A stretch of 36,820 nucleotides of DNA from Hippea sp. (GTDB taxonomy: Bacteria > Campylobacterota_A > Desulfurellia > Desulfurellales > Hippeaceae). The position numbers and the translations under genes were made by a program. A model generated the notes under the pieces. It was not told the DNA's origin and ran no database searches. It worked only from the letters and a program-made list of their open reading frames with translations. This document shows positions 3,324-33,356 of the stretch, one piece after another. The stretch covers positions 1-36,820 of the forward strand of contig WFQR01000026.1 in NCBI GenBank assembly GCA_015486955.1. Reading direction: 5' to 3'. Numbering within the stretch: position 1 is the stretch's first letter; each line of letters starts with the position of its first letter.

Positions 3324-4553
3324 ATGAAGAAAAAACTACTTTCAACTGCTGCAATAGCAGTAGCATTGGGTATGGCGTCCTTTCAATCCCACGCCTCAAC
3401 AGTCACACTCAAAGGCTCAACGCAGGCAACGCTATATGGTTTTGCATATGCAGAGTTTGCATGGGATAATCAGATGACAAACATACCGGATTTATCAAAC
3501 ATGCCAAAACCAAATCCGAATTCTCTTTCTAAGTACAGTACACCTCTGTACAAAAGCACATATGATAAAACCAGTGCAAATGCTGAATCCTTCATGACAC
3601 GTCTTGGTTTGAAGTTCACAAACAGTGATGCAAATATAAAAGGAAAGCTGGAAGGAGACTTTAAAGGTGGTTCAGGGAGCAACAAGGGTAATTTCAGAAT
3701 GAGACAGGCTTGGGTGGAGCATGAGTTAGGAAGTTTTAATGTGCTTATAGGCCAGGCATACATCTTGGAAGAGATGCACTCATCCATCAGTATAGGTGAT
3801 GATGCGCCCGGCGGATTCAATATACCTTTCCACAGAGTACCTATGGTGGAACTGAGTTCATCCATAGACTTAGGCAGCGCAGACTTAGACCTTGCTTTAG
3901 CTTTTGAATGGAGCAACAGCAAAGCTGCAGCATCAGGGAAAGACGCAAAGAGCACAGTGCTATCTGTAGATAGGTATGTGTTTCCCACAACAGCAGCAAG
4001 GGCAGTTTTACATATTGCAACAGGCTTTGGTTCACCTGCCACCCTTTATGCCTGGGGCTCTGTAATTCCTGTATATGTTAGTGATAAAAATGGAGCAAAT
4101 GTGAGTGATGATTTTGAAACAGGTTATGGATTTGGCGCAGGAATAAGGGTTCCAATATCTATGTTCAAGATAGGAGCAAACTTCCAGTATTCTGACGGTG
4201 CAACGGGTTATGCAGGATTGACCGATTATGAACCTGCAAGCTACTACTTGAGCACGTCTGGAGATGTTGAAAAAACGCAGATGTATGCATGGAATGTCAA
4301 CGCCACAGTATCACCCACATCTTACATAACTGTTGGGGCTGAGTATGACTATGCAAAATTTGACAATGATGTTTTGCCTTCTGATCCTAAAGTAGAAACA
4401 GTAGTGGGCAACATAAAAATCAAAACCACAAAGGTTACATCCCTTGGTATAGAGTGGAGACATGTAAAGGCAAAAGATTTTGATGCTGTTGGTGCTGGCG
4501 ACGATGACTTCTCAGGTGATCAGGTGTATGCGATTTATAAGTATAAGTTTTGA
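3324..4553 (+). CDS. Outer-membrane beta-barrel porin, paralog 2
   Basis: Signal peptide MKKKLLSTAAIAVALGMASFQSHA; strong similarity to the flanking porins (e.g. PTTAARAVLH, GATGYAGLTDYEPASYYL); C-terminal YKYKF. Confidence 0.85.
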   Translation: MKKKLLSTAAIAVALGMASFQSHASTVTLKGSTQATLYGFAYAEFAWDNQMTNIPDLSNMPKPNPNSLSKYSTPLYKSTYDKTSANAESFMTRLGLKFTNSDANIKGKLEGDFKGGSGSNKGNFRMRQAWVEHELGSFNVLIGQAYILEEMHSSISIGDDAPGGFNIPFHRVPMVELSSSIDLGSADLDLALAFEWSNSKAAASGKDAKSTVLSVDRYVFPTTAARAVLHIATGFGSPATLYAWGSVIPVYVSDKNGANVSDDFETGYGFGAGIRVPISMFKIGANFQYSDGATGYAGLTDYEPASYYLSTSGDVEKTQMYAWNVNATVSPTSYITVGAEYDYAKFDNDVLPSDPKVETVVGNIKIKTTKVTSLGIEWRHVKAKDFDAVGAGDDDFSGDQVYAIYKYKF

Positions 4554-22904: not shown

Positions 22905-23693
22905 ATGAAGGTTGCAGTTGGACAGTTTCAAATAGTACCCGGCGACGTTGAGAAAAACTTTAAAAAAGGAACAGAGTTGATAAAGGAAGCAATAGATGAA
23001 GACTGCGATTTGGTACTCTTACCCGAAGTGTGGACTACAGGTTTTCTATTCAAAAAACTGAAAGATCTATCAAAAACAACACCGCCTATCTTAGATGAGA
23101 TTAAAAAGCTATCCAAAGACATTATGATTTGTGGAACGTATGTTGTGGACAACCCTACATCCGATAAGGTCTTCAATATATTTTACACAATATTAGATGG
23201 GAAAATCGTGTTTTCCTATAAAAAAACAATGCTTTTCGGCTTGACGGGAGAAGATAAATACTTTGAAAGAGGAGATTTAGATCAAAATTACACCTTCAAT
23301 GCACTCGGTACAACATTTGGAGTTAGCGTATGCTATGAATTGAGGTTCCCTGAGTTCTTCAGAAGAGCAAGCTTTAAGGGAGCTTTAATACATCTACATC
23401 CAGCAATATGGCCAGAAAATAGGCTTGACCACTGGCTGACACTGACGAGGGCAAGAGCCATAGAAAACCAGTTCTTCCTGTTAACGTCAAATGGGGTGAG
23501 ATTAAGTGGTAAGTGGGAACTCTGCGGACACTCTACCATTTATGACCCTTGGGGTGAAGTAGAAAATCGAATAGAAACCAACGAAGGATTGGCAATTAAA
23601 AAAATAAACTTAGAAAAAACAAACGAGGTCAGAAAAAAACTTACTTCTCTAAAAGATTCTGTAGAATTTCTGGGAGACCTTTATATTAGGTAA
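22905..23693 (+). CDS. Carbon-nitrogen hydrolase (nitrilase superfamily, omega-amidase-like)
   Basis: Glu in LVLLPEVWTTGF, Lys in YKKTMLFG, Cys in VSVCYELRFPEFFR. Confidence 0.88.
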   Translation: MKVAVGQFQIVPGDVEKNFKKGTELIKEAIDEDCDLVLLPEVWTTGFLFKKLKDLSKTTPPILDEIKKLSKDIMICGTYVVDNPTSDKVFNIFYTILDGKIVFSYKKTMLFGLTGEDKYFERGDLDQNYTFNALGTTFGVSVCYELRFPEFFRRASFKGALIHLHPAIWPENRLDHWLTLTRARAIENQFFLLTSNGVRLSGKWELCGHSTIYDPWGEVENRIETNEGLAIKKINLEKTNEVRKKLTSLKDSVEFLGDLYIR

Positions 23694-24015
23694 ACACCTT
23701 CAAAGGAGCATCCGGTTTCTTCTTTATCTTGCCTTCCCTAATCTCCTCCTCAAAAGCCTTCATCCTCTTTTCAACCATCTCTTTCAGGTGTGCCTTTATA
23801 TCGCTAATCCTGCCCCTCTCTTTTGCAACTTCTAATAACCTCTCGCCTGTTTTCCTGCCTATAAACTTCGCCGTCTCATGTGGTATCAATAGTGCTCCAC
23901 ATGACGGACAAAAATACACCTCAATATCCTTTATCTCCAGCATCTCACCCTTAACGGGCCTCTTAAAAGGCATAACAATCCTTTTCATCTGCCTTCCACA
24001 ATACTTGCAAACCAT
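23686..24015 (-). CDS. YgiT-type zinc-finger domain protein
   Basis: MVCKYCGRQMKRIVMPFKRPVKGEMLEIKDIEVYFCPSCGALLIP (two CxxC); SD AGGAGG upstream of the internal ATG. Confidence 0.7.
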   Translation of the reverse strand: MVCKYCGRQMKRIVMPFKRPVKGEMLEIKDIEVYFCPSCGALLIPHETAKFIGRKTGERLLEVAKERGRISDIKAHLKEMVEKRMKAFEEEIREGKIKKKPDAPLKVFT

Positions 24016-24045
24016 TACCCTTCGCACCTCCTTTTACAAAATAAA

Positions 24046-24068
24046 AACGAGGGGCTAAATGCCCCCCT
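24046..24068 (-). terminator. Terminator after the CoA-transferase subunit B gene
   Basis: Minus strand GGGGC-ATTTA-GCCCC then TCGTTTTTATTTTG. Confidence 0.65.
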
Positions 24069-24074
24069 GAAATT

Positions 24075-25151
24075 TTAGCCTTTAACCTTAACCCTCCAAG
24101 GCTTGCCCGTCTCTTTCTCGTACTCAATCTCCCTCAATGTCTTCCTACTCAAGTAGATCCTCGTTGGGTCAACGATCATTCTCAATACTTTTAACTGCTC
24201 AATTGTAGGAGTTGGTGTTTCAGGAACATCGTCGGTTGGTTTCAATACCTTACCGCTTTTGTCCTTCAACTCCCAACCCACGTTCTCAATTACGTCCTTC
24301 AAGCTCACGCCTGGGTGGACACTTCTCAACCTCATGTCATAGATACCGTCATTAGGATAACTCTCCATGACGCATATATCTGAGGTCATAACGCCTTTTC
24401 CGCCTCTCGGCACACCGTAATCCCACCTTGTCTCGCCTTCTGGACCCCTTGATCCTGCAATCGTTGTCAAATAGCATACATGCGGTGGGAATCTCCTCTT
24501 TTCCTGAACCATGATAGCGAGCGTGAAGTCAGACTGCTGACCTATTGGGTTAGAACCACCTGATCCTGTAAACCTTACCGCTGGGCCCAATTTATGATCG
24601 TCCATTCTCTCATCCTGGCTTCTTTCGCCTTTCTTTATAATGGATGGGAAGTATCCCATTCTCCCTTCTTTTTCTTTATCCCATATTGCCGTAGCGTTGA
24701 TGTTTCCATACTGATCATACTCAGCACCGCCTAAAACACCGCCTGTGACGTAACCCCTCTGCTCATAAGTTCCAAATGCGTCGATCATGGATAGAGCTGT
24801 TGATGCCATGTATGCACCGCGGATGTCCGCAACGGAGATTGGAATGTGCTCGAACTTTGGATCGAGCATTCCAGCTTCCATAACAATTGTTGCACCTGGG
24901 TTGATCGTATGCTGGGCTTCAGCCATTGTCAAAACGGGCAATCCCGTTCCTACGAACATGGAAGCGCCGTTTGGAATCATAGTGGAACCAGCGATAGCAA
25001 GGAGCTCAATCGTTGTAAACTCATCCGGTGGAAGATCGTACTCCTTGCAGTATGCTTCATACTCAGCATCACTGATACCAGATTTAAAATCTTTAACTAA
25101 CTCAATAATTTCATCAACAGTCGATATCTCTACCGGTACATATACACCCAT
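24075..25151 (-). CDS. CoA-transferase family I, beta-like subunit (glutaconate CoA-transferase B-like)
   Basis: IAGSTMIPNGASMFVGTGLPVLTMAEAQHTINPGATIVMEAGMLDPK (candidate catalytic Glu). SD AAGGAGG before the ATG at 25151; the track start at 25211 is too far upstream. Confidence 0.75.
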   Translation of the reverse strand: MGVYVPVEISTVDEIIELVKDFKSGISDAEYEAYCKEYDLPPDEFTTIELLAIAGSTMIPNGASMFVGTGLPVLTMAEAQHTINPGATIVMEAGMLDPKFEHIPISVADIRGAYMASTALSMIDAFGTYEQRGYVTGGVLGGAEYDQYGNINATAIWDKEKEGRMGYFPSIIKKGERSQDERMDDHKLGPAVRFTGSGGSNPIGQQSDFTLAIMVQEKRRFPPHVCYLTTIAGSRGPEGETRWDYGVPRGGKGVMTSDICVMESYPNDGIYDMRLRSVHPGVSLKDVIENVGWELKDKSGKVLKPTDDVPETPTPTIEQLKVLRMIVDPTRIYLSRKTLREIEYEKETGKPWRVKVKG

Positions 25152-25161
25152 TTTTACCTCC

Positions 25162-26400
25162 TTACTTACCAATAGGTCTGTAGAGATCTGGTTTATATCC
25201 GTATTTTGCATCAGCCCTTAATTCAAAGAGCCTTGCAAAACCGGTCTTTCCATTCGGAGACTCATATTTTGCTTCAATGTTTCCAAACTTGAAGTAGTCT
25301 GTTCCAACCTTGTTCTCCAAGTAATCCCACTCGTCTTTGCCAACTATATTATGCCAGTAATCGGCTAATGCTTTCTTTCCGTCATTTGTTGCTGCAGCCC
25401 TGTTAGCCTTGATGTAGAACATCCACCACATCCAGTCGTAGTCATAGTAATATGTAGAACCTGTTGGATAGCATCCAAATGGTGTTTCAACAATGGCATC
25501 CACATGTGTATATGGAATCTGATTCTCAGAAGCCCTGAGCCTCAACTCCTCTTCAGGAACAATCTTCTCAGCAGAAATTACAAGGTACTTTGCAGAAATG
25601 GACTGCTCAACATCTGGAACAAGCAATCCTTCAATCCTTGCCGTTCCCATCTCACCAACTCTCTGAACATGCGTTGTTGTTACATAAGGAATGTCAGGTG
25701 GGAACAGAATTGCAATTATACCCTTCTCACCTGTATACTTGTTTGTTCTTCTCCTTAAAGCCTCATAGAAAATACCATCTTCAATAGCTGCCGTCTTGTT
25801 CATCGTTGTATCAGGCTCATCGCCTTTGGAGTACTTGTTATTCGGATCATATTGGTGAGGTCTCAAGCCCCAACCATCGAATGGATCCTTAATGATTGCA
25901 TGTCTCTTTGGAGGAATATCTGGATGGATCCAATAACCATTCTCATCCTTACCTCTCAAACCAGCCTCGCCAAACGTATCGTACTCTATTAAATCTGCAC
26001 CTAAATCTGACATACCAGAAGCAAACTGCATTCCGAACCTACCGGCAATAGTTCTCAAAGCCCAGGAATAGTTCGTGTAATCCATAACAGCTTCAATCTG
26101 ACCATCCTCAAGACCTTTCCTAACCTCGTAGGAAACAGGCTGGATTGTCTCAAGACCCAAGTAGGTCATCTCAACCCATGCAAGCTGCAATGCACCACCC
26201 ATCATCATGATAGGTGTAGCACCAGCGTTCGTCTGAACGTACAAATCTTTAATGTTCTGCCTAATAACCTCTCTTGGGATAGCAACATTTGTCCTTGTAT
26301 AACCGAAACCACCTACGCACCAAGCTCTCTTCGGTTTGATGAACTTTTTAACGACTTCTTGTACTGACATTATCTTGTTCTCGCCTTTTGGCACTGCCAT
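25162..26400 (-). CDS. CoA-transferase family I, alpha-like subunit (glutaconate CoA-transferase A-like)
   Basis: MAVPKGENKIMSVQEVVKKFIKPKRAWCVGGFGYTRTNVAIPREVIRQNIKDLYVQTNAGATPIMMMGGALQLAWVEMTYLG; GIIAILFPPDIPYVTTTHVQRVGEMGTARIEGL. SD GGAGGTAGGT before the ATG at 26400. Confidence 0.75.
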   Translation of the reverse strand: MAVPKGENKIMSVQEVVKKFIKPKRAWCVGGFGYTRTNVAIPREVIRQNIKDLYVQTNAGATPIMMMGGALQLAWVEMTYLGLETIQPVSYEVRKGLEDGQIEAVMDYTNYSWALRTIAGRFGMQFASGMSDLGADLIEYDTFGEAGLRGKDENGYWIHPDIPPKRHAIIKDPFDGWGLRPHQYDPNNKYSKGDEPDTTMNKTAAIEDGIFYEALRRRTNKYTGEKGIIAILFPPDIPYVTTTHVQRVGEMGTARIEGLLVPDVEQSISAKYLVISAEKIVPEEELRLRASENQIPYTHVDAIVETPFGCYPTGSTYYYDYDWMWWMFYIKANRAAATNDGKKALADYWHNIVGKDEWDYLENKVGTDYFKFGNIEAKYESPNGKTGFARLFELRADAKYGYKPDLYRPIGK

Positions 26401-26785
26401 ACCTACCTCCAAACTCCTCTAAAAATTTTTCTAATTGTTTTAGTTCTTCCTCCGGATCCGGTGCCTCATTACCAATCTCCGCATATTCAATGGGCACGCC
26501 CAAAACATCCGAGAGTTTTTCGATAAATTCCACAACCCTTTCATATTTCAGACCCGTGATGTAAAAGTCCACAGAGTAATCTGTGTTAAAGTAAACCGTC
26601 GGATACATATCATCGAAATCCAGAATATCCTCGCCACTTATGTTGTAAGGAATAAGCCTAAAACTTGAACCACCAGTTTTAACGATTTTACCGAGACTTT
26701 TGACTTTTTCTAAAATCTCCTCAAATGTTATAAGCTCACCGCCACCTATAATCTTACCCGGTAAAACCGTGAAATCTCCAGACAT
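26348..26785 (-). CDS. Uncharacterized protein, 145 aa, overlapping the CoA-transferase alpha gene
   Basis: ORF MSGDFTVLPGKIIGGGELITFEEILEKVKSLGKIVKTGGSSFRLIPYNISGEDILDFDD...; abuts the upstream ORF stop and overlaps the downstream start by 53 nt. Confidence 0.7.
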   Translation of the reverse strand: MSGDFTVLPGKIIGGGELITFEEILEKVKSLGKIVKTGGSSFRLIPYNISGEDILDFDDMYPTVYFNTDYSVDFYITGLKYERVVEFIEKLSDVLGVPIEYAEIGNEAPDPEEELKQLEKFLEEFGGRYGSAKRREQDNVSTRSR

Positions 26786-27175
26786 TTACTCTAACTCCCT
26801 CTTCTTCGCCCAGAGTGTCCTCAAAACGTCCTCAATCTTACCCTCTGTGTACTCAAGCATCTCTTTTGCGTTCTTGATGTAGTCAAGTTTGAGCCTCAAC
26901 TCATTCTCCATAATCTCTGCAGTCTCTTTTTGCTTTAGCTCATCTACCAACTTGCCTAATCTTGTAATGGCTGCAGGAACCTTCTTGAACTGCCACATCC
27001 ACGTTTCAAAGTAATAATTGGACATGGCGAGTTCCCATACCTGCGCTGTCAAAGATTTCCACGTCTCTAACTTCTCTTTAGACTCTTTCTGAGGCTGTTC
27101 TTGAACCTCTACCTTAGGTGCAGTTCGCCTCATCTTTTCTCGAAAGGCTTTTGGATAAGCTATCACTCTTCTCAC
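26786..27175 (-). CDS. Uncharacterized helical protein, 129 aa, first gene of the CoA-transferase operon
   Basis: MRRVIAYPKAFREKMRRTAPKVEVQEQPQKESKEKLETWKSLTAQVWELAMSNYYFETWMWQFKKVPAAITRLGKLVDEL...; SD AAGGAGGTGAG upstream. Confidence 0.75.
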   Translation of the reverse strand: MRRVIAYPKAFREKMRRTAPKVEVQEQPQKESKEKLETWKSLTAQVWELAMSNYYFETWMWQFKKVPAAITRLGKLVDELKQKETAEIMENELRLKLDYIKNAKEMLEYTEGKIEDVLRTLWAKKRELE

Positions 27176-27210
27176 CTCCTTCTACTATGATATTTTTAAT
27201 TGTCAATTGA

Positions 27211-27239
27211 ATTCTAATATAAGAGACATTAATTGTCAA
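27211..27239 (-). promoter_or_regulatory. Sigma70-type promoter for the orf129-orf145-CoA-transferase operon
   Basis: Minus strand TTGACA (27234-27239), 17 nt, TAGAAT (27211-27216). Confidence 0.75.
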
Positions 27240-27616: not shown

Positions 27617-29281
27617 ATGGTACAAAACAAAATTGTTGGTGTAAGGGATGCGTTAAGTATCATTAAAGATGGGGATGTAGTGGCAATTTCAGGTTTTAAC
27701 CTTTCCACATCCCCAGAGTACCTAATCTTAGAACTTTTCAAGATGTACAAAGAAACGGGACATCCAAACAACCTGTTCATCATCTCCGACACATTACCTG
27801 CAGTGCCAGATAGGGGTCTTGATAAGGTATTCTCAGAGCTTTATGAAATGAAAGATCAAAACTTCATAAGGGGCGTTCTAATGCCGTTTATAGGATGGTC
27901 GCCAGCCCTTATGAAAATGACCTTAGAAAATAGGATAGAAGTTTACTCCTATGCTATAGGCACAACATCTTATTGGTTTAGGGAAGTGGCAAGCGGAAGG
28001 CCAGGTTTGATCACAAAGGTTGGAATTGGAACGTTCTTAGACCCAAGAATAGACGGCGGAGCATCCAACGAACTGGCTAAAGAGAGAAAAACGTGCAAGG
28101 TCTCAACTATAGAAATTGATGGCGAAGAATGGTTGTTGTATCAAGCTCCAACACCAGATGTAGCCCTCGTTAGAGGAACAACAGCAGACGAAGATGGAAA
28201 CATTTCTATGGAAGAAGAAGGCATATATGGAACGGTATTAAACATTTGTCAAGCTGCTAAAGCCTTGCCAAACCCAGGAAAAACAATAGTTCAGGTAAAA
28301 TACGTTGCAAGGAAGGACACCATACCGACAAGGGACGTTGTAGTTCCAGCTCCTCTTGTAGATTACGTCGTTGTCGCTCCGGATGCTGAGAAATACCACA
28401 AAATATCTGGCAGTTACGTATATGACCCAAGACTCGCTGGACATGTAAAAGCTAAGAAGACAAAGGAAATGGAAGATCTTCTGCCAACACCAAGCAAAAT
28501 CAGGGATCGAATTGTTGCAGGAAGGGTTCTAATTGAGGCAATGCGACTCGCTGCCAAGCTGAAGAAACCTCTTTTTGGAAACTTAGGTATAGGAATACCC
28601 GTTTATGTTTCTTGGCTTGCAGGAGAATTTGGATACAGCGACCTGTTAGCATTAACAGTGGAACCAGGTCCTGTCGGTGGCATAGCCTTAGTTGGTGCAG
28701 ATTTTGGAGTAGCAATATCACCACAGGCTTTAATACCTATGCCAGATATGTTCACAAACTACGAGGGTGGAATAATAGACTTTGCTTCGTTGGGCTTTAT
28801 GGAGATAGATCCAAAGGGTAATGTTAACCCATCTTACAGCTCTGTCAGGGTTTCTGGACCGGGTGGTTTCCCTGTAATCAGCGCAGGATCCCCAAGAACG
28901 TTCTTTGCCGGTGGATTCACAGCTGGAAAATTCGACATAGACGCCGATAATGGAAAATTAATAATCAAATCAGACGGCAATATCTTGAAATTCAATGAAC
29001 AAATTGTAAAGATCGTTTTCAGTGGTCCACAGGCAGTTAAAAGCGGAAAAGAAATACTTTATGTAACCGAAAGGGCAGTATTTGGATTGAACGAGAATGG
29101 ATTAGTTCTAAAAGAGGTTGCACCCGGCGTAGACATAGAAAAGGACATCTTGGCAAAGATGAACTTCAAACCACAAATACCAGACAAGGTGGAAACAATG
29201 CCAGAATGCCTGTTCTACAAAGAATTAGACCCGCTTAAGGAATTTATCGATTCTATATTAAACGAGGCGGGACTGCTTTAA
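27617..29281 (+). CDS. Fused alpha-beta acyl-CoA:acetate/3-ketoacid CoA-transferase (YdiF-like)
   Basis: 554 aa with both domains; catalytic-Glu motif LALTVEPGPVGGI; GNLGIGIPVYV; SD AGGAGG. Confidence 0.88.
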   Translation: MVQNKIVGVRDALSIIKDGDVVAISGFNLSTSPEYLILELFKMYKETGHPNNLFIISDTLPAVPDRGLDKVFSELYEMKDQNFIRGVLMPFIGWSPALMKMTLENRIEVYSYAIGTTSYWFREVASGRPGLITKVGIGTFLDPRIDGGASNELAKERKTCKVSTIEIDGEEWLLYQAPTPDVALVRGTTADEDGNISMEEEGIYGTVLNICQAAKALPNPGKTIVQVKYVARKDTIPTRDVVVPAPLVDYVVVAPDAEKYHKISGSYVYDPRLAGHVKAKKTKEMEDLLPTPSKIRDRIVAGRVLIEAMRLAAKLKKPLFGNLGIGIPVYVSWLAGEFGYSDLLALTVEPGPVGGIALVGADFGVAISPQALIPMPDMFTNYEGGIIDFASLGFMEIDPKGNVNPSYSSVRVSGPGGFPVISAGSPRTFFAGGFTAGKFDIDADNGKLIIKSDGNILKFNEQIVKIVFSGPQAVKSGKEILYVTERAVFGLNENGLVLKEVAPGVDIEKDILAKMNFKPQIPDKVETMPECLFYKELDPLKEFIDSILNEAGLL

Positions 29282-29316: not shown

Positions 29317-29649
29317 TCAATACCCAGAGATCTTTGTGTTCAACCTTGCCTCGTAAACCTCTGCACCTTTGTCTGTTGCGTACATCAAAAACACATCAAC
29401 CTCTGGCGAAGAGCTACCAAGTCTTTTTGATTCAGAGACCACCAAGACATCGCCTTCCTTTAATTTTGGCAAGATTTCTTTACCTAACCTCCTGTTTTTC
29501 CAACTTATGTACGGCTTAACATTCTCTATTAAATACTCAACATCTTCTGATTTGAGACCAAACTTATCCTTGACAAATTTATCGATCGCTGCCTTTTGTA
29601 AAATCTTTTCAGCCTCATTGTCATACTGGATATAGCCATAAACCTTCAT
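29317..29649 (-). CDS. Serine-recombinase (resolvase N-terminal) fold protein, 110 aa, apparently lacking catalytic residues and a DNA-binding domain
   Basis: MKVYGYIQYDNEAEK...YISWKNRRLGKEILPKLKEGDVLVVSESKRLGSS...GAEVYEARLNTKI resembles resolvase N-domains (MKVYGYIRVSTxxQ...WKxRxLGxLLxxLKxGDVLxVSExSRLGRS...GxxVYxxK), but IRVST is IQYDN and LGRS is LGSS. SD GGAGG. Confidence 0.65.
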   Translation of the reverse strand: MKVYGYIQYDNEAEKILQKAAIDKFVKDKFGLKSEDVEYLIENVKPYISWKNRRLGKEILPKLKEGDVLVVSESKRLGSSSPEVDVFLMYATDKGAEVYEARLNTKISGY

Positions 29650-29856: not shown

Positions 29857-29993
29857 CCCTTCTCACCTCGATTGTTAATCTAAGGCTTAAAATATATATA
29901 AAAAAAACTAACCTCTTTCAACAAAAACATGTTTTACCCTTGATTTTAAAAATCTCGTGTAATATCCTTTGCAAGTAATTTTTGGAGGTTCTT

Positions 29994-30911
29994 ATGACTA
30001 ACGAAGAGTTAAAAAAGGAAATCTTGAAGCTAAAAAAAGAAAAAAACGCGGTAATACTTGCGCATTACTATCAGATCGATGATATACAGGAAATAGCTGA
30101 TGTAAGGGGTGATTCATTGGCTTTGGCAATTGAAGCAACAAAGCTTAACTCAGATATAATCGTGTTTTGCGGTGTTAGGTTTATGGCTGAAACGGCAAAG
30201 GTGCTGTGTCCTGATAGGAAGGTTTTAATTCCGGAGATTAATTCCGTTTGTCCACTTGCCGATATGGCAACAAAAGAGGAAGTTCTAAAGAAAAAGGAGG
30301 AACTGGGCAACCCTACCGTTGTATCCTACGTAAACACCAATGTAGACGTCAAAACCGTGTCTGATATATGTTGTACGTCTGCAAACGCTGTAAACGTTGT
30401 GAAGAGTTTAGACGAAAATCGCGTGTTGTTTGTTCCTGACAGAAATTTGGGAAGTTACGTTAAGGAACAGGTTCAAGAGAAAGAGGTTATACTGTGGGAT
30501 GGCTACTGTCCTGTTCATGAAGAGTACTCAACTAAAGATTTAAAAAAGCTAAAAGAAGAGCACCCCGATGCAAAAGTGGCTGTTCATCCAGAATCTCCTA
30601 AGGCAATACGTGATATGGCCGATTTTATAGGCTCAACAAGTGGAATTATAAACTACGTGAGCAAGACAGATGCAAATGAGTTTATTATTGGAACAGAGGA
30701 AGGCATCCTTTATGAACTCAAATTAAATAACCCGGGCAAGGAGTTTTACATAATAGGTAGTAAATCGGTTTGCACGAACATGAAAAAGATAACACTCGAA
30801 TCGCTGTACAGGGCATTGAAGGACGAAATCTACGAAATAGAGCTTGATGAAGAGACTATAGAGCTTGCAAAGAAACCCATCGAGAGGATGATTTCAATAA
30901 AGAGAACGTGA
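29994..30911 (+). CDS. nadA: Quinolinate synthase
   Basis: NAVILAHYYQIDDIQEIADVRGDSLALA; SDICCTSANAVNVV; FVPDRNLGSYV; WDGYCPVHEEY; GTEEGILYELK. SD GGAGG before the ATG at 29994. Confidence 0.96.
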   Translation: MTNEELKKEILKLKKEKNAVILAHYYQIDDIQEIADVRGDSLALAIEATKLNSDIIVFCGVRFMAETAKVLCPDRKVLIPEINSVCPLADMATKEEVLKKKEELGNPTVVSYVNTNVDVKTVSDICCTSANAVNVVKSLDENRVLFVPDRNLGSYVKEQVQEKEVILWDGYCPVHEEYSTKDLKKLKEEHPDAKVAVHPESPKAIRDMADFIGSTSGIINYVSKTDANEFIIGTEEGILYELKLNNPGKEFYIIGSKSVCTNMKKITLESLYRALKDEIYEIELDEETIELAKKPIERMISIKRT

Positions 30912-31738
30912 TGAACCCGATATTCTTGAAAAAGGTCTTAGAACTATACATTTTAGAGGATTCTTACTTTTCCGATATAACAACAGAAGCCATAGGAAGC
31001 AACAGAAAGGTAACAGGTACAATTAGGGCCAAGGAAGACTTTATGCTCGCAGGTTCTATCTTCATTGAGCCCCTGTTTCAAATCTTTGGCAGGCCATACT
31101 CTGTAGAAATCTTCAAAAACGAAGGCGAATGGATAAAAAAGGGTGAGACAATAGCTAAAATCGAAGCGGAAGATAGGGTGGTCTTGACGGCTGAGAGGAT
31201 CTGTCTAAACATACTCCAAAGGCTCAGCGGCATTGCAACAAAAACAAGGAATTTGTCAAATCTGATAAAGGACTACAAAGCAGAAATCGTTGACACAAGA
31301 AAGACAACGCCGGGGTTTAGGTTCTTTGAAAAATACGCCGTTAAAGTGGGCGGTGGAGTAAATCACAGAATTGGTCTATTCGACGCTGCATTAATAAAGG
31401 ACAACCACATAAAGGCCGCAGGTTCGATAAAAAGGGCAATAGAAATGGTCAAAAGGAACTGCTCCTTCACAACAAAGATAGAGGTTGAATGTGAGAATGA
31501 AGAGATGGTGGCTGAAGCAATAGAAAACGGCGCAGATATTGTAATGTTGGACAATATGTCGGTTGAAGATATGAGCAAAGTGATCAAGAAATTCGAAGGA
31601 AAGGTGATTTTTGAGGCAAGTGGAAATATAGATGAAAACAACATAGTAGATGTGGCGAAAACAGGCGTTGATTTTATTTCACTGGGAAGCTTAACCCACC
31701 ATGCGTGTTGGGTGGACATAAACATGAAATTGGAGTGA
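30911..31738 (+). CDS. nadC: Nicotinate-nucleotide pyrophosphorylase (carboxylating)
   Basis: LEDSYFSDITTEAI; VLTAERICLNILQRLSGIATKTRNL; EIVDTRKTTPGFRFFEKYAVKVGGGVNHRIGLFDAALIKDNHI. ATG overlaps the nadA stop (TGATG). Confidence 0.96.
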   Translation: MNPIFLKKVLELYILEDSYFSDITTEAIGSNRKVTGTIRAKEDFMLAGSIFIEPLFQIFGRPYSVEIFKNEGEWIKKGETIAKIEAEDRVVLTAERICLNILQRLSGIATKTRNLSNLIKDYKAEIVDTRKTTPGFRFFEKYAVKVGGGVNHRIGLFDAALIKDNHIKAAGSIKRAIEMVKRNCSFTTKIEVECENEEMVAEAIENGADIVMLDNMSVEDMSKVIKKFEGKVIFEASGNIDENNIVDVAKTGVDFISLGSLTHHACWVDINMKLE

Positions 31739-31741
31739 GAT

Positions 31742-32542
31742 ATGAAGATTGCGATCGGACAAATTGACACGGTGTTAGGTGATGTAGAGAAAAACGTAAA
31801 AAAGCTTGAGCATTATACGGATAAGGCAATAGAGGAAAAGTGTGACCTAATTGTGTTTCCAGAGCTTGCTGCCTGCGGTTATAGTTTAAGAGACCTTGTA
31901 TACACATCATCAAAAGCACCGGACGATCCCGCGTTTTTAAGTTTAAAAGAAAAGAGCAACTATATTGATATAGTGTTTGGTTTTGCTCAGAAAGAAAGCG
32001 GCTATTTTTTCAACAGTTCAATGTATCTGTCAAACGGAGAGATTTTGAACATTCACAAAAAGAAGTTTTTACCTGATTACGGAATGTTTGAGGAGCAAAG
32101 GTACTTTTCACCAGGTCAAACGATAGATACCTTTAAAACAAAGTTCGGCAAAGTGACAACACTCATCTGCGAAGATGCATTCCACATTTCTTCGCATTAC
32201 GCAGCCTTCAAAAATGAAACGGAAATCTTGATTATACTTTCGGCAAGTCCTTTCTGGTCTGATCATAATAGTATGAAGTGGGAGTTATGGGAAAACGTAT
32301 GTAAAACTTCTGCGCAATTGAACGGTTACTTCGTTATTTTCTCAAACAGGGTGGGATTTGAAGATGGCGTGGGTTTTTTTGGCAAGTCATTCATTGTTAG
32401 CCCAAAGGGACATATAATAAAGGAAGCCTCTTTTTTGAAAGAGGAGCTGTTTACAGCAGAGATCGATTTGAGGGATATAGAACGTGCACGGCTATTTATG
32501 CCAATAAGAAAGAACGAGGTTTGCAATGAATCTGTTGGATAA
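31742..32542 (+). CDS. Nitrilase-superfamily amidase, probable glutaminase subunit for NAD synthetase
   Basis: MKIAIGQIDTVLGDVEKNVKKLEHYTDKAIEEKCDLIVFPELAACGYSLRDLVY; HKKKFLPDYGMFEEQRYFSPG; TTLICEDAFHISSHY: closest in style to the N-domain of glutamine-dependent NadE; overlaps nadE by 17 nt. Confidence 0.82.
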   Translation: MKIAIGQIDTVLGDVEKNVKKLEHYTDKAIEEKCDLIVFPELAACGYSLRDLVYTSSKAPDDPAFLSLKEKSNYIDIVFGFAQKESGYFFNSSMYLSNGEILNIHKKKFLPDYGMFEEQRYFSPGQTIDTFKTKFGKVTTLICEDAFHISSHYAAFKNETEILIILSASPFWSDHNSMKWELWENVCKTSAQLNGYFVIFSNRVGFEDGVGFFGKSFIVSPKGHIIKEASFLKEELFTAEIDLRDIERARLFMPIRKNEVCNESVG

Positions 32543-33356
32543 ATTAAAGATCGACTGTGAATTTGTATCGTCGTATTTAATAGAGTTTGTACGTCAAGAA
32601 ATAACAAAAACAGGGCTTACTAAAGCAGTTATAGGTCTATCAGGTGGCATTGACTCAAGCGTTGTGGCCTACATTGCTAAAGAAGCTTTAGGTAAAGAGA
32701 ATGTCTACGGCATACTGATGCCTTACAAATTATCGAGCAAAGAAAGTGTAGAAGATGCACTAAAGGTTGTTAAAGATACAGGTATAAACTATAAGATATT
32801 CGAAATAACTGACCCAGCGGATGCCTACATAAACAAATTCGACGAAATGGACAAGGTCAGAAAGGGAAACATCTTTGCAAGACTGAGAATGATAACGCTG
32901 TTTGACCATTCCCAACTGTACAAAGCTCTGGTGGTTGGTACAAGCAACAAAACAGAACTGCTTTTGGGATACGGAACGTGGTATGGCGACATGGCTTCAT
33001 GTCTAAACCCCATAGGAGACCTCTACAAAAACCAGATATACCAGTTAGCACGGTACCTTAGGGTGCCTGAAAGTATCATAAAAAAGAAACCATCGGCAGA
33101 CCTTTGGGTTGGGCAATCCGATGAAGAAGAGCTGGGCTTTAGCTATGATGAAGCGGATGTTATTCTCTATCACCTGTATGATCTGCATTACACCATTGAA
33201 GAAGTTGTAAATCTCGGGTTTAAAAGAGAGCTTGTTAGGGGAATAGCGGATAGGGTTAAGAGAAACCAGTTCAAGAGACTCCCGCCTATAATAGCCAAAA
33301 TCAGCAAAAGAACAATCAATATAGACTTCAGATACTTAAGAGATTGGGGCTTGTAA
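32526..33356 (+). CDS. nadE: NAD+ synthetase, synthetase domain
   Basis: AVIGLSGGIDSSVVAYIAKEAL; VVGTSNKTELLLGYGTWYGDMASCLNPIGDLYKNQIYQLARYL; KKPSADLWVGQSDEEELGFSYDEAD. Confidence 0.95.
   Translation: MNLLDKLKIDCEFVSSYLIEFVRQEITKTGLTKAVIGLSGGIDSSVVAYIAKEALGKENVYGILMPYKLSSKESVEDALKVVKDTGINYKIFEITDPADAYINKFDEMDKVRKGNIFARLRMITLFDHSQLYKALVVGTSNKTELLLGYGTWYGDMASCLNPIGDLYKNQIYQLARYLRVPESIIKKKPSADLWVGQSDEEELGFSYDEADVILYHLYDLHYTIEEVVNLGFKRELVRGIADRVKRNQFKRLPPIIAKISKRTINIDFRYLRDWGL

Follow-up and report, generated by a model that had tools for sequence, protein, structure and literature searches.

A gene cluster in the stretch of Hippea sp. DNA analysed here (36,820 nucleotides, contig WFQR01000026.1; hereafter the window) raises the question of whether two small genes, orf129 and orf145, belong functionally to the glutaconate CoA-transferase (Gct)-like subunits, alpha and beta, with which they are linked. 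All four genes lie on the minus strand, in the order orf129, orf145, alpha, beta, behind one promoter. The original prediction had proposed a four-component acyl-CoA-transferase, or a related enzyme, with dedicated accessory subunits.

The promoter ahead of the four genes, which had been predicted, is of the sigma-70 type (TTGACA-17-TAGAAT, 27211..27239, minus strand, 11/12 consensus matches). It is the top minus-strand promoter match of a region in which promoter-like matches overall were not in excess (20, vs 16.4 in shuffles). Nine other Desulfurellia loci, from three families, keep it at this position ahead of orf129, with the pattern CTTGACA-about 17-TAnnnT. The orf129 reading frame is present as predicted (129 aa, 27175..26786), except that the GTG at 27175 on which it opens sits inside the Shine-Dalgarno sequence AGGAGGTGAG. 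The GTG at 27166 suits this ribosome-binding site and corresponds to the start used in families f2 and f3; it is therefore most likely the true start, giving a protein of 126 aa (26786..27166). The ATG of orf145 (26348..26785, 145 aa) directly abuts the orf129 stop codon (TAAATG), and its 3' end overlaps alpha by 53 nt; both junctions are as described before. Alpha starts at ATG 26400 and encodes 412 aa (25162..26400), the 413 aa previously given to this gene seeming to include the stop codon, and beta starts at ATG 25151, with TAAGGAGGTAAAAATG ahead of it, and has the expected 358 aa (24075..25151).

Directly 3' of beta, a terminator-like hairpin with a T-tract was found (24049..24067, minus strand). 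A GC-rich hairpin recurs at this position, with a different sequence, in nine other loci (that of locus L068 has no U-tract), and therefore transcription of the unit is likely to stop after beta. Beyond the hairpin lies a fifth linked gene, absent from the operon as first described, which encodes a YgiT-type zinc-finger protein of 113 aa (23686..24027, minus strand; TIGR03831 above cut-off). It follows beta in 13 of the 13 Desulfurellia loci long enough to show it, and is probably reached by read-through or from a promoter of its own. In Desulfurella acetivorans, an XRE-cupin regulator (L067:10652-11293) comes next after the zinc-finger gene.

Both large subunits carry the CoA_trans domain (PF01144; 31.5 bits in alpha and 37 bits in beta, cut-off 23). 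Among solved proteins they come closest to GctA and GctB from Acidaminococcus fermentans (1poi), which were matched with E values of 2e-25 (alpha, 1poi_A) and 8e-26 (beta, 1poi_B), far ahead of IpdAB and AibAB. In the beta alignment, VMEAGMLDP is placed on GctB VESGLMDC, with Glu aligned to Glu. This glutamate is invariant in an alignment of 13 Desulfurellia betas, as well as in a joint alignment of five Desulfurellia betas with seven from the second lineage described below. The residue that forms the covalent intermediate in GctB is Glu54 beta (PMC5380842), and the motif suggests that the aligned glutamate is its equivalent, chain numbering being offset. The resemblance to GctAB extends to the separate genes, alpha then beta, to the GSGG[AS]N and VGTGLP motifs in beta, and to the GGF motif in alpha (here GGFGYT).

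In contrast to GctAB, the cassette encodes subunits of 412 and 358 aa, compared with 317 and 260 aa in the solved GctA and GctB chains, which bears out the claim that they are longer than the classic ones. Insertions relative to the Gct relatives are present in both, as a central insertion in alpha and extra segments in beta. In addition, two small genes are linked to the pair, whereas a Gct enzyme is near 320/260 aa in size and has no further subunits. Size and subunit number are usual rather than strictly defining Gct traits, and the locus is therefore regarded as a variant. Judged by sequence, alpha and beta belong among the subunits of Gct-type (family I) CoA-transferases, with CoA transfer as their predicted activity. 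When alpha was placed in a tree with 14 ordinary Gct-like proteins, including paralogues from the same Desulfurellia genomes, the long alphas of both lineages formed one clade (support 100/100), well separated from the ordinary proteins by a branch of 1.25 changes per column. Read as unrooted, this tree shows the separation of the long clade and not its direction.

Other enzymes built on related folds fit the locus less well. OXCT1/YdiF-type transferases are fused single chains of about 520-550 aa, whereas alpha and beta are separate genes, and this type was rejected. IpdAB, the COCHEA-CoA ring hydrolase of Mycobacterium and Rhodococcus, for which we know of no small partner proteins, is a distant relative on the Gct scaffold (6con/6co6, E about 1e-3), as is the decarboxylase AibAB (5mzw). 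In IpdB the catalytic glutamate is replaced by glycine (Gly57 beta; PMC5380842) and the aligned AibB chains have another residue at this position, whereas the cassette beta keeps its glutamate and in this respect resembles neither the IpdAB-type ring hydrolase nor the AibAB-type decarboxylase.

For the small proteins, ratios of non-synonymous to synonymous change (dN/dS, Nei-Gojobori) of 0.05-0.08 for orf129 and 0.04-0.12 for orf145 (0.04-0.05 in the stretch outside the alpha overlap) were obtained. At about 0.04-0.12 these values rule out random reading frames, and orf129 and orf145 are real genes. Neither protein had been assigned to a recognised family, and searches of Pfam, NCBIfam, PADLOC, PHROGs, PDB sequences and PDB folds agreed with this, giving no match worth believing. 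AlphaFold2 models, built from alignments of eight sequences, predicted long helices for orf129 (pLDDT 78) and an alpha/beta protein for orf145 (pLDDT 75, core above 90); searched against PDB folds, neither model gave a match below E 0.001. A phage or defence origin was rejected, as PADLOC and PHROGs returned only weak scattered matches and a scan of viral contigs revealed no relative.

A CoA-transferase-fold subunit also works with a small dedicated protein in citrate lyase and malonate decarboxylase, where the small subunit is a carrier protein that bears its prosthetic group on a serine. The cassette proteins differ in this respect: in the orf129 alignment no serine is conserved above 60%, and in that of orf145 none above 80%, which rules out an ACP-like carrier role.

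The long alpha was found in 16 of 25 genomes of the sulfur-reducing Desulfurellia, among them that of D. acetivorans (CP007051), and orf129 and orf145 adjoin it in all 16. The cassette is flanked in Hippea-type genomes by recG-nitrilase on one side and an OXCT1/YdiF-like CoA-transferase gene on the other; in D. acetivorans and in family f3 it is at another location, intact. One genome (G013) has lost the cassette and kept both flanks, together with a 41-codon remnant of orf145 (L115 = G013:C30:9000-15500, 4101-4217). The same Desulfurellia genomes also encode ordinary Gct-like paralogues, and these have neither orf129 nor orf145 beside them. On plasmids, only ordinary Gct-like proteins were seen, 24-30% identical among the matches listed.

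Several neighbours in the window deserve mention in their own right. The divergent OXCT1/FadX-like single-chain CoA-transferase (27617..29281, plus strand) is 84-87% identical across the Hippea-type loci checked, and is probably the orthologue of AHF96498, the characterised succinyl-CoA:acetate CoA-transferase of D. acetivorans. The latter is a family I CoA-transferase from the same bacterial group, but is a fused chain of about 550 aa that belongs to the OXCT1 branch and lies outside the four-gene unit (PMC9768450). A further small gene, orf110 (29317..29649, minus strand; L068:1658-1996), encodes a protein that resembles the N-terminal domain of resolvases (PF00239, E 0.011, below cut-off) but lacks their usual catalytic serine motif. 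Among 98 genomes it is restricted to Desulfurellia, where it lies directly upstream of orf129 in family f3, one gene away in the genus of the window and about 25 kb off in D. acetivorans; it was not found in the loci of the second lineage. A quinolinate/NAD synthesis cluster (29982..33356, plus strand) comprises nadA-like and nadC-like genes, a nitrilase-family gene and NAD synthase, and a second nitrilase-family gene is located at 22905..23693.

A profile search of 386 genomes revealed one further group of carriers, f115, which the taxonomy used treats as a small phylum of its own (12 genomes, 8 genera). A contig scan with very narrow peptide patterns had matched the Desulfurellia type only and had missed f115, so that its silence elsewhere means little. 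The long alpha is present in 12 of 12 f115 genomes, in two of them as partial copies. The f115 alpha and beta share about 45% identity with those of the window and are shorter in locus L123 (384/309 aa). The Desulfurellia orf129 profile matched the reading frame directly upstream of the f115 alpha (E 1.4e-15 and 5.4e-12), and the orf145 profile matched those directly downstream of beta (E 8e-8, 6e-6 and 3e-4), the best decoy frame in the same loci having an E value above 3. The gene order in f115 is thus orf129-alpha-beta-orf145, and one genome (G279, L123:11706-12328) has two tandem, diverged orf145-like genes 3' of beta.

With combined profiles, orf129 was detected in 12 of 12 and an orf145-like gene in 11 of 12 f115 genomes; the one without a match (G398) has only a partial alpha. 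In G397 (L136, L166) orf145 lies 1.2 Mb from alpha; since the rest of the cluster adjoins orf145 there, and at the other place beta is broken, this is read as a split assembly and not as biological separation. The sample comprised 376 genomes, mostly from different families, and all three Desulfurellia genomes in it were matched. Outside the carriers, orf145 gave no match and orf129 two marginal ones (E 2.5e-4 and 5.6e-4), both in long reading frames, so that no convincing occurrence of the small proteins without the transferase was observed in these 376 genomes. The four genes are a genuine conserved unit. Their neighbourhood is kept in 16 of 16 Desulfurellia genomes and homologues stand beside the long pair in f115, so that the small genes, whose absence beside orthologous transferases elsewhere would have spoken against the original prediction, accompany them there too.

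The genes around the f115 cassette encode a crotonase, a corrinoid adenosyltransferase, a methylmalonyl-CoA-mutase B12-binding subunit, MeaB, an M24 peptidase, a PaaK-like ligase, a TPR protein, a YcaC-like hydrolase and IorAB, as well as two IclR-type regulators (assigned from sequences), and indicate organic-acid or amino-acid metabolism. These neighbours do not accompany the cassette in Desulfurellia, where the adjoining genes point to no pathway, and no homologue of the zinc-finger gene was found in the f115 loci.

Taken together, we consider, with a probability of about 0.6, that the cassette encodes a Gct-type CoA-transferase with enlarged subunits that works with two small dedicated proteins. 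Linkage in two lineages and the lack of any match to an unrelated family support the proposed enzyme with accessory subunits, and orf129 and orf145 are probably subunits or assembly/gating factors. For the co-occurrence, the number of independent events is small because only two independent lineages are involved, and the orf145 homology between them is weak for some members (E 3e-4). These few lineages, together with the zinc-finger gene and, in D. acetivorans, the XRE-cupin regulator that are also part of the cluster, would suit a view of the small proteins as regulators, or as unrelated passengers whose place in the operon is an accident of descent. Such passengers would hardly have been kept in two distant lineages despite a rearranged gene order, nor would one expect to find them only with the transferase, and we regard this explanation as very improbable.

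It is unlikely, but by a smaller measure, that orf129 and orf145 stand outside the finished enzyme and serve the enlarged subunits as dedicated factors for assembly (chaperones) or stability. Their small size, their strict linkage and the overlap of orf145 with the alpha start, as in translationally coupled pairs, suit this role, and the co-occurrence data fit it equally well; ordinary Gct-type enzymes, among them the paralogues of the same genomes, nevertheless manage without such factors. A change of function was also considered, in which the complex, in the manner of IpdAB or AibAB, would have given up CoA transfer to become a hydrolase, decarboxylase or lyase on the Gct scaffold, and the small proteins would build the new site. 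Gct relatives have switched function before (IpdAB, PMC5380842), and the long branch to the ordinary Gct-like proteins and the new insertions in both subunits could reflect such a switch. Since the beta glutamate, which IpdAB and the aligned AibB chains have lost, is invariant here, we hold this to be quite improbable.

For a CoA-transferase assisted by two small proteins, the following mechanism is proposed. Alpha and beta would form the usual enzyme, in which the carboxylate of the beta glutamate would attack the CoA thioester donor, leading by way of an acyl-glutamyl anhydride to a glutamyl-CoA thioester, from which CoA would then be passed to the acceptor carboxylate. The helical orf129 and the alpha/beta protein orf145 would attach to the large subunits as further subunits with a structural, assembly or gating role. 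The reaction is likely an organic-acid CoA exchange, as suggested by the f115 neighbours (PaaK-like ligase, IorAB, parts of a B12-dependent mutase) and by the adjoining OXCT1-like transferase in the genus of the window.

In a published inventory, four CoA-transferases were listed for D. acetivorans (AHF96498, AHF97294, AHF97575 and AHF96963), one of them Gct-type, and a homologue of AHF96498 was said to be the only CoA-transferase in H. maritima and H. jasoniae (PMC9768450). From the order of accessions, AHF96963 would correspond to the ordinary Gct-like gene, near 761 kb, rather than to the long pair, which lies near 1,726 kb. The long pair, for which conservation is strong in both D. acetivorans and the genus of the window, appears not to have been counted in this Desulfurellaceae inventory. 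Literature searches for Gct-type enzymes with extra subunits gave nothing relevant; to the extent that the literature was searched, a four-part version of the two-part Gct enzyme would be undescribed.

CoA-transferases determine organic-acid activation and exchange in anaerobes. More tentatively, the cassette might represent a family I CoA-transferase of a four-subunit class not described so far. The two small proteins, with new folds, would then belong to the active complex and would set its substrate range or couple it to a partner enzyme (in f115 perhaps the adjacent PaaK-like ligase or the 2-oxoacid oxidoreductase) in the organic-acid metabolism of Hippea, Desulfurella and one other bacterial lineage. 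Should the small proteins be true subunits, an enzyme known from textbooks as having two subunits would have a new quaternary design, and there would be a context in which to test two new protein families.
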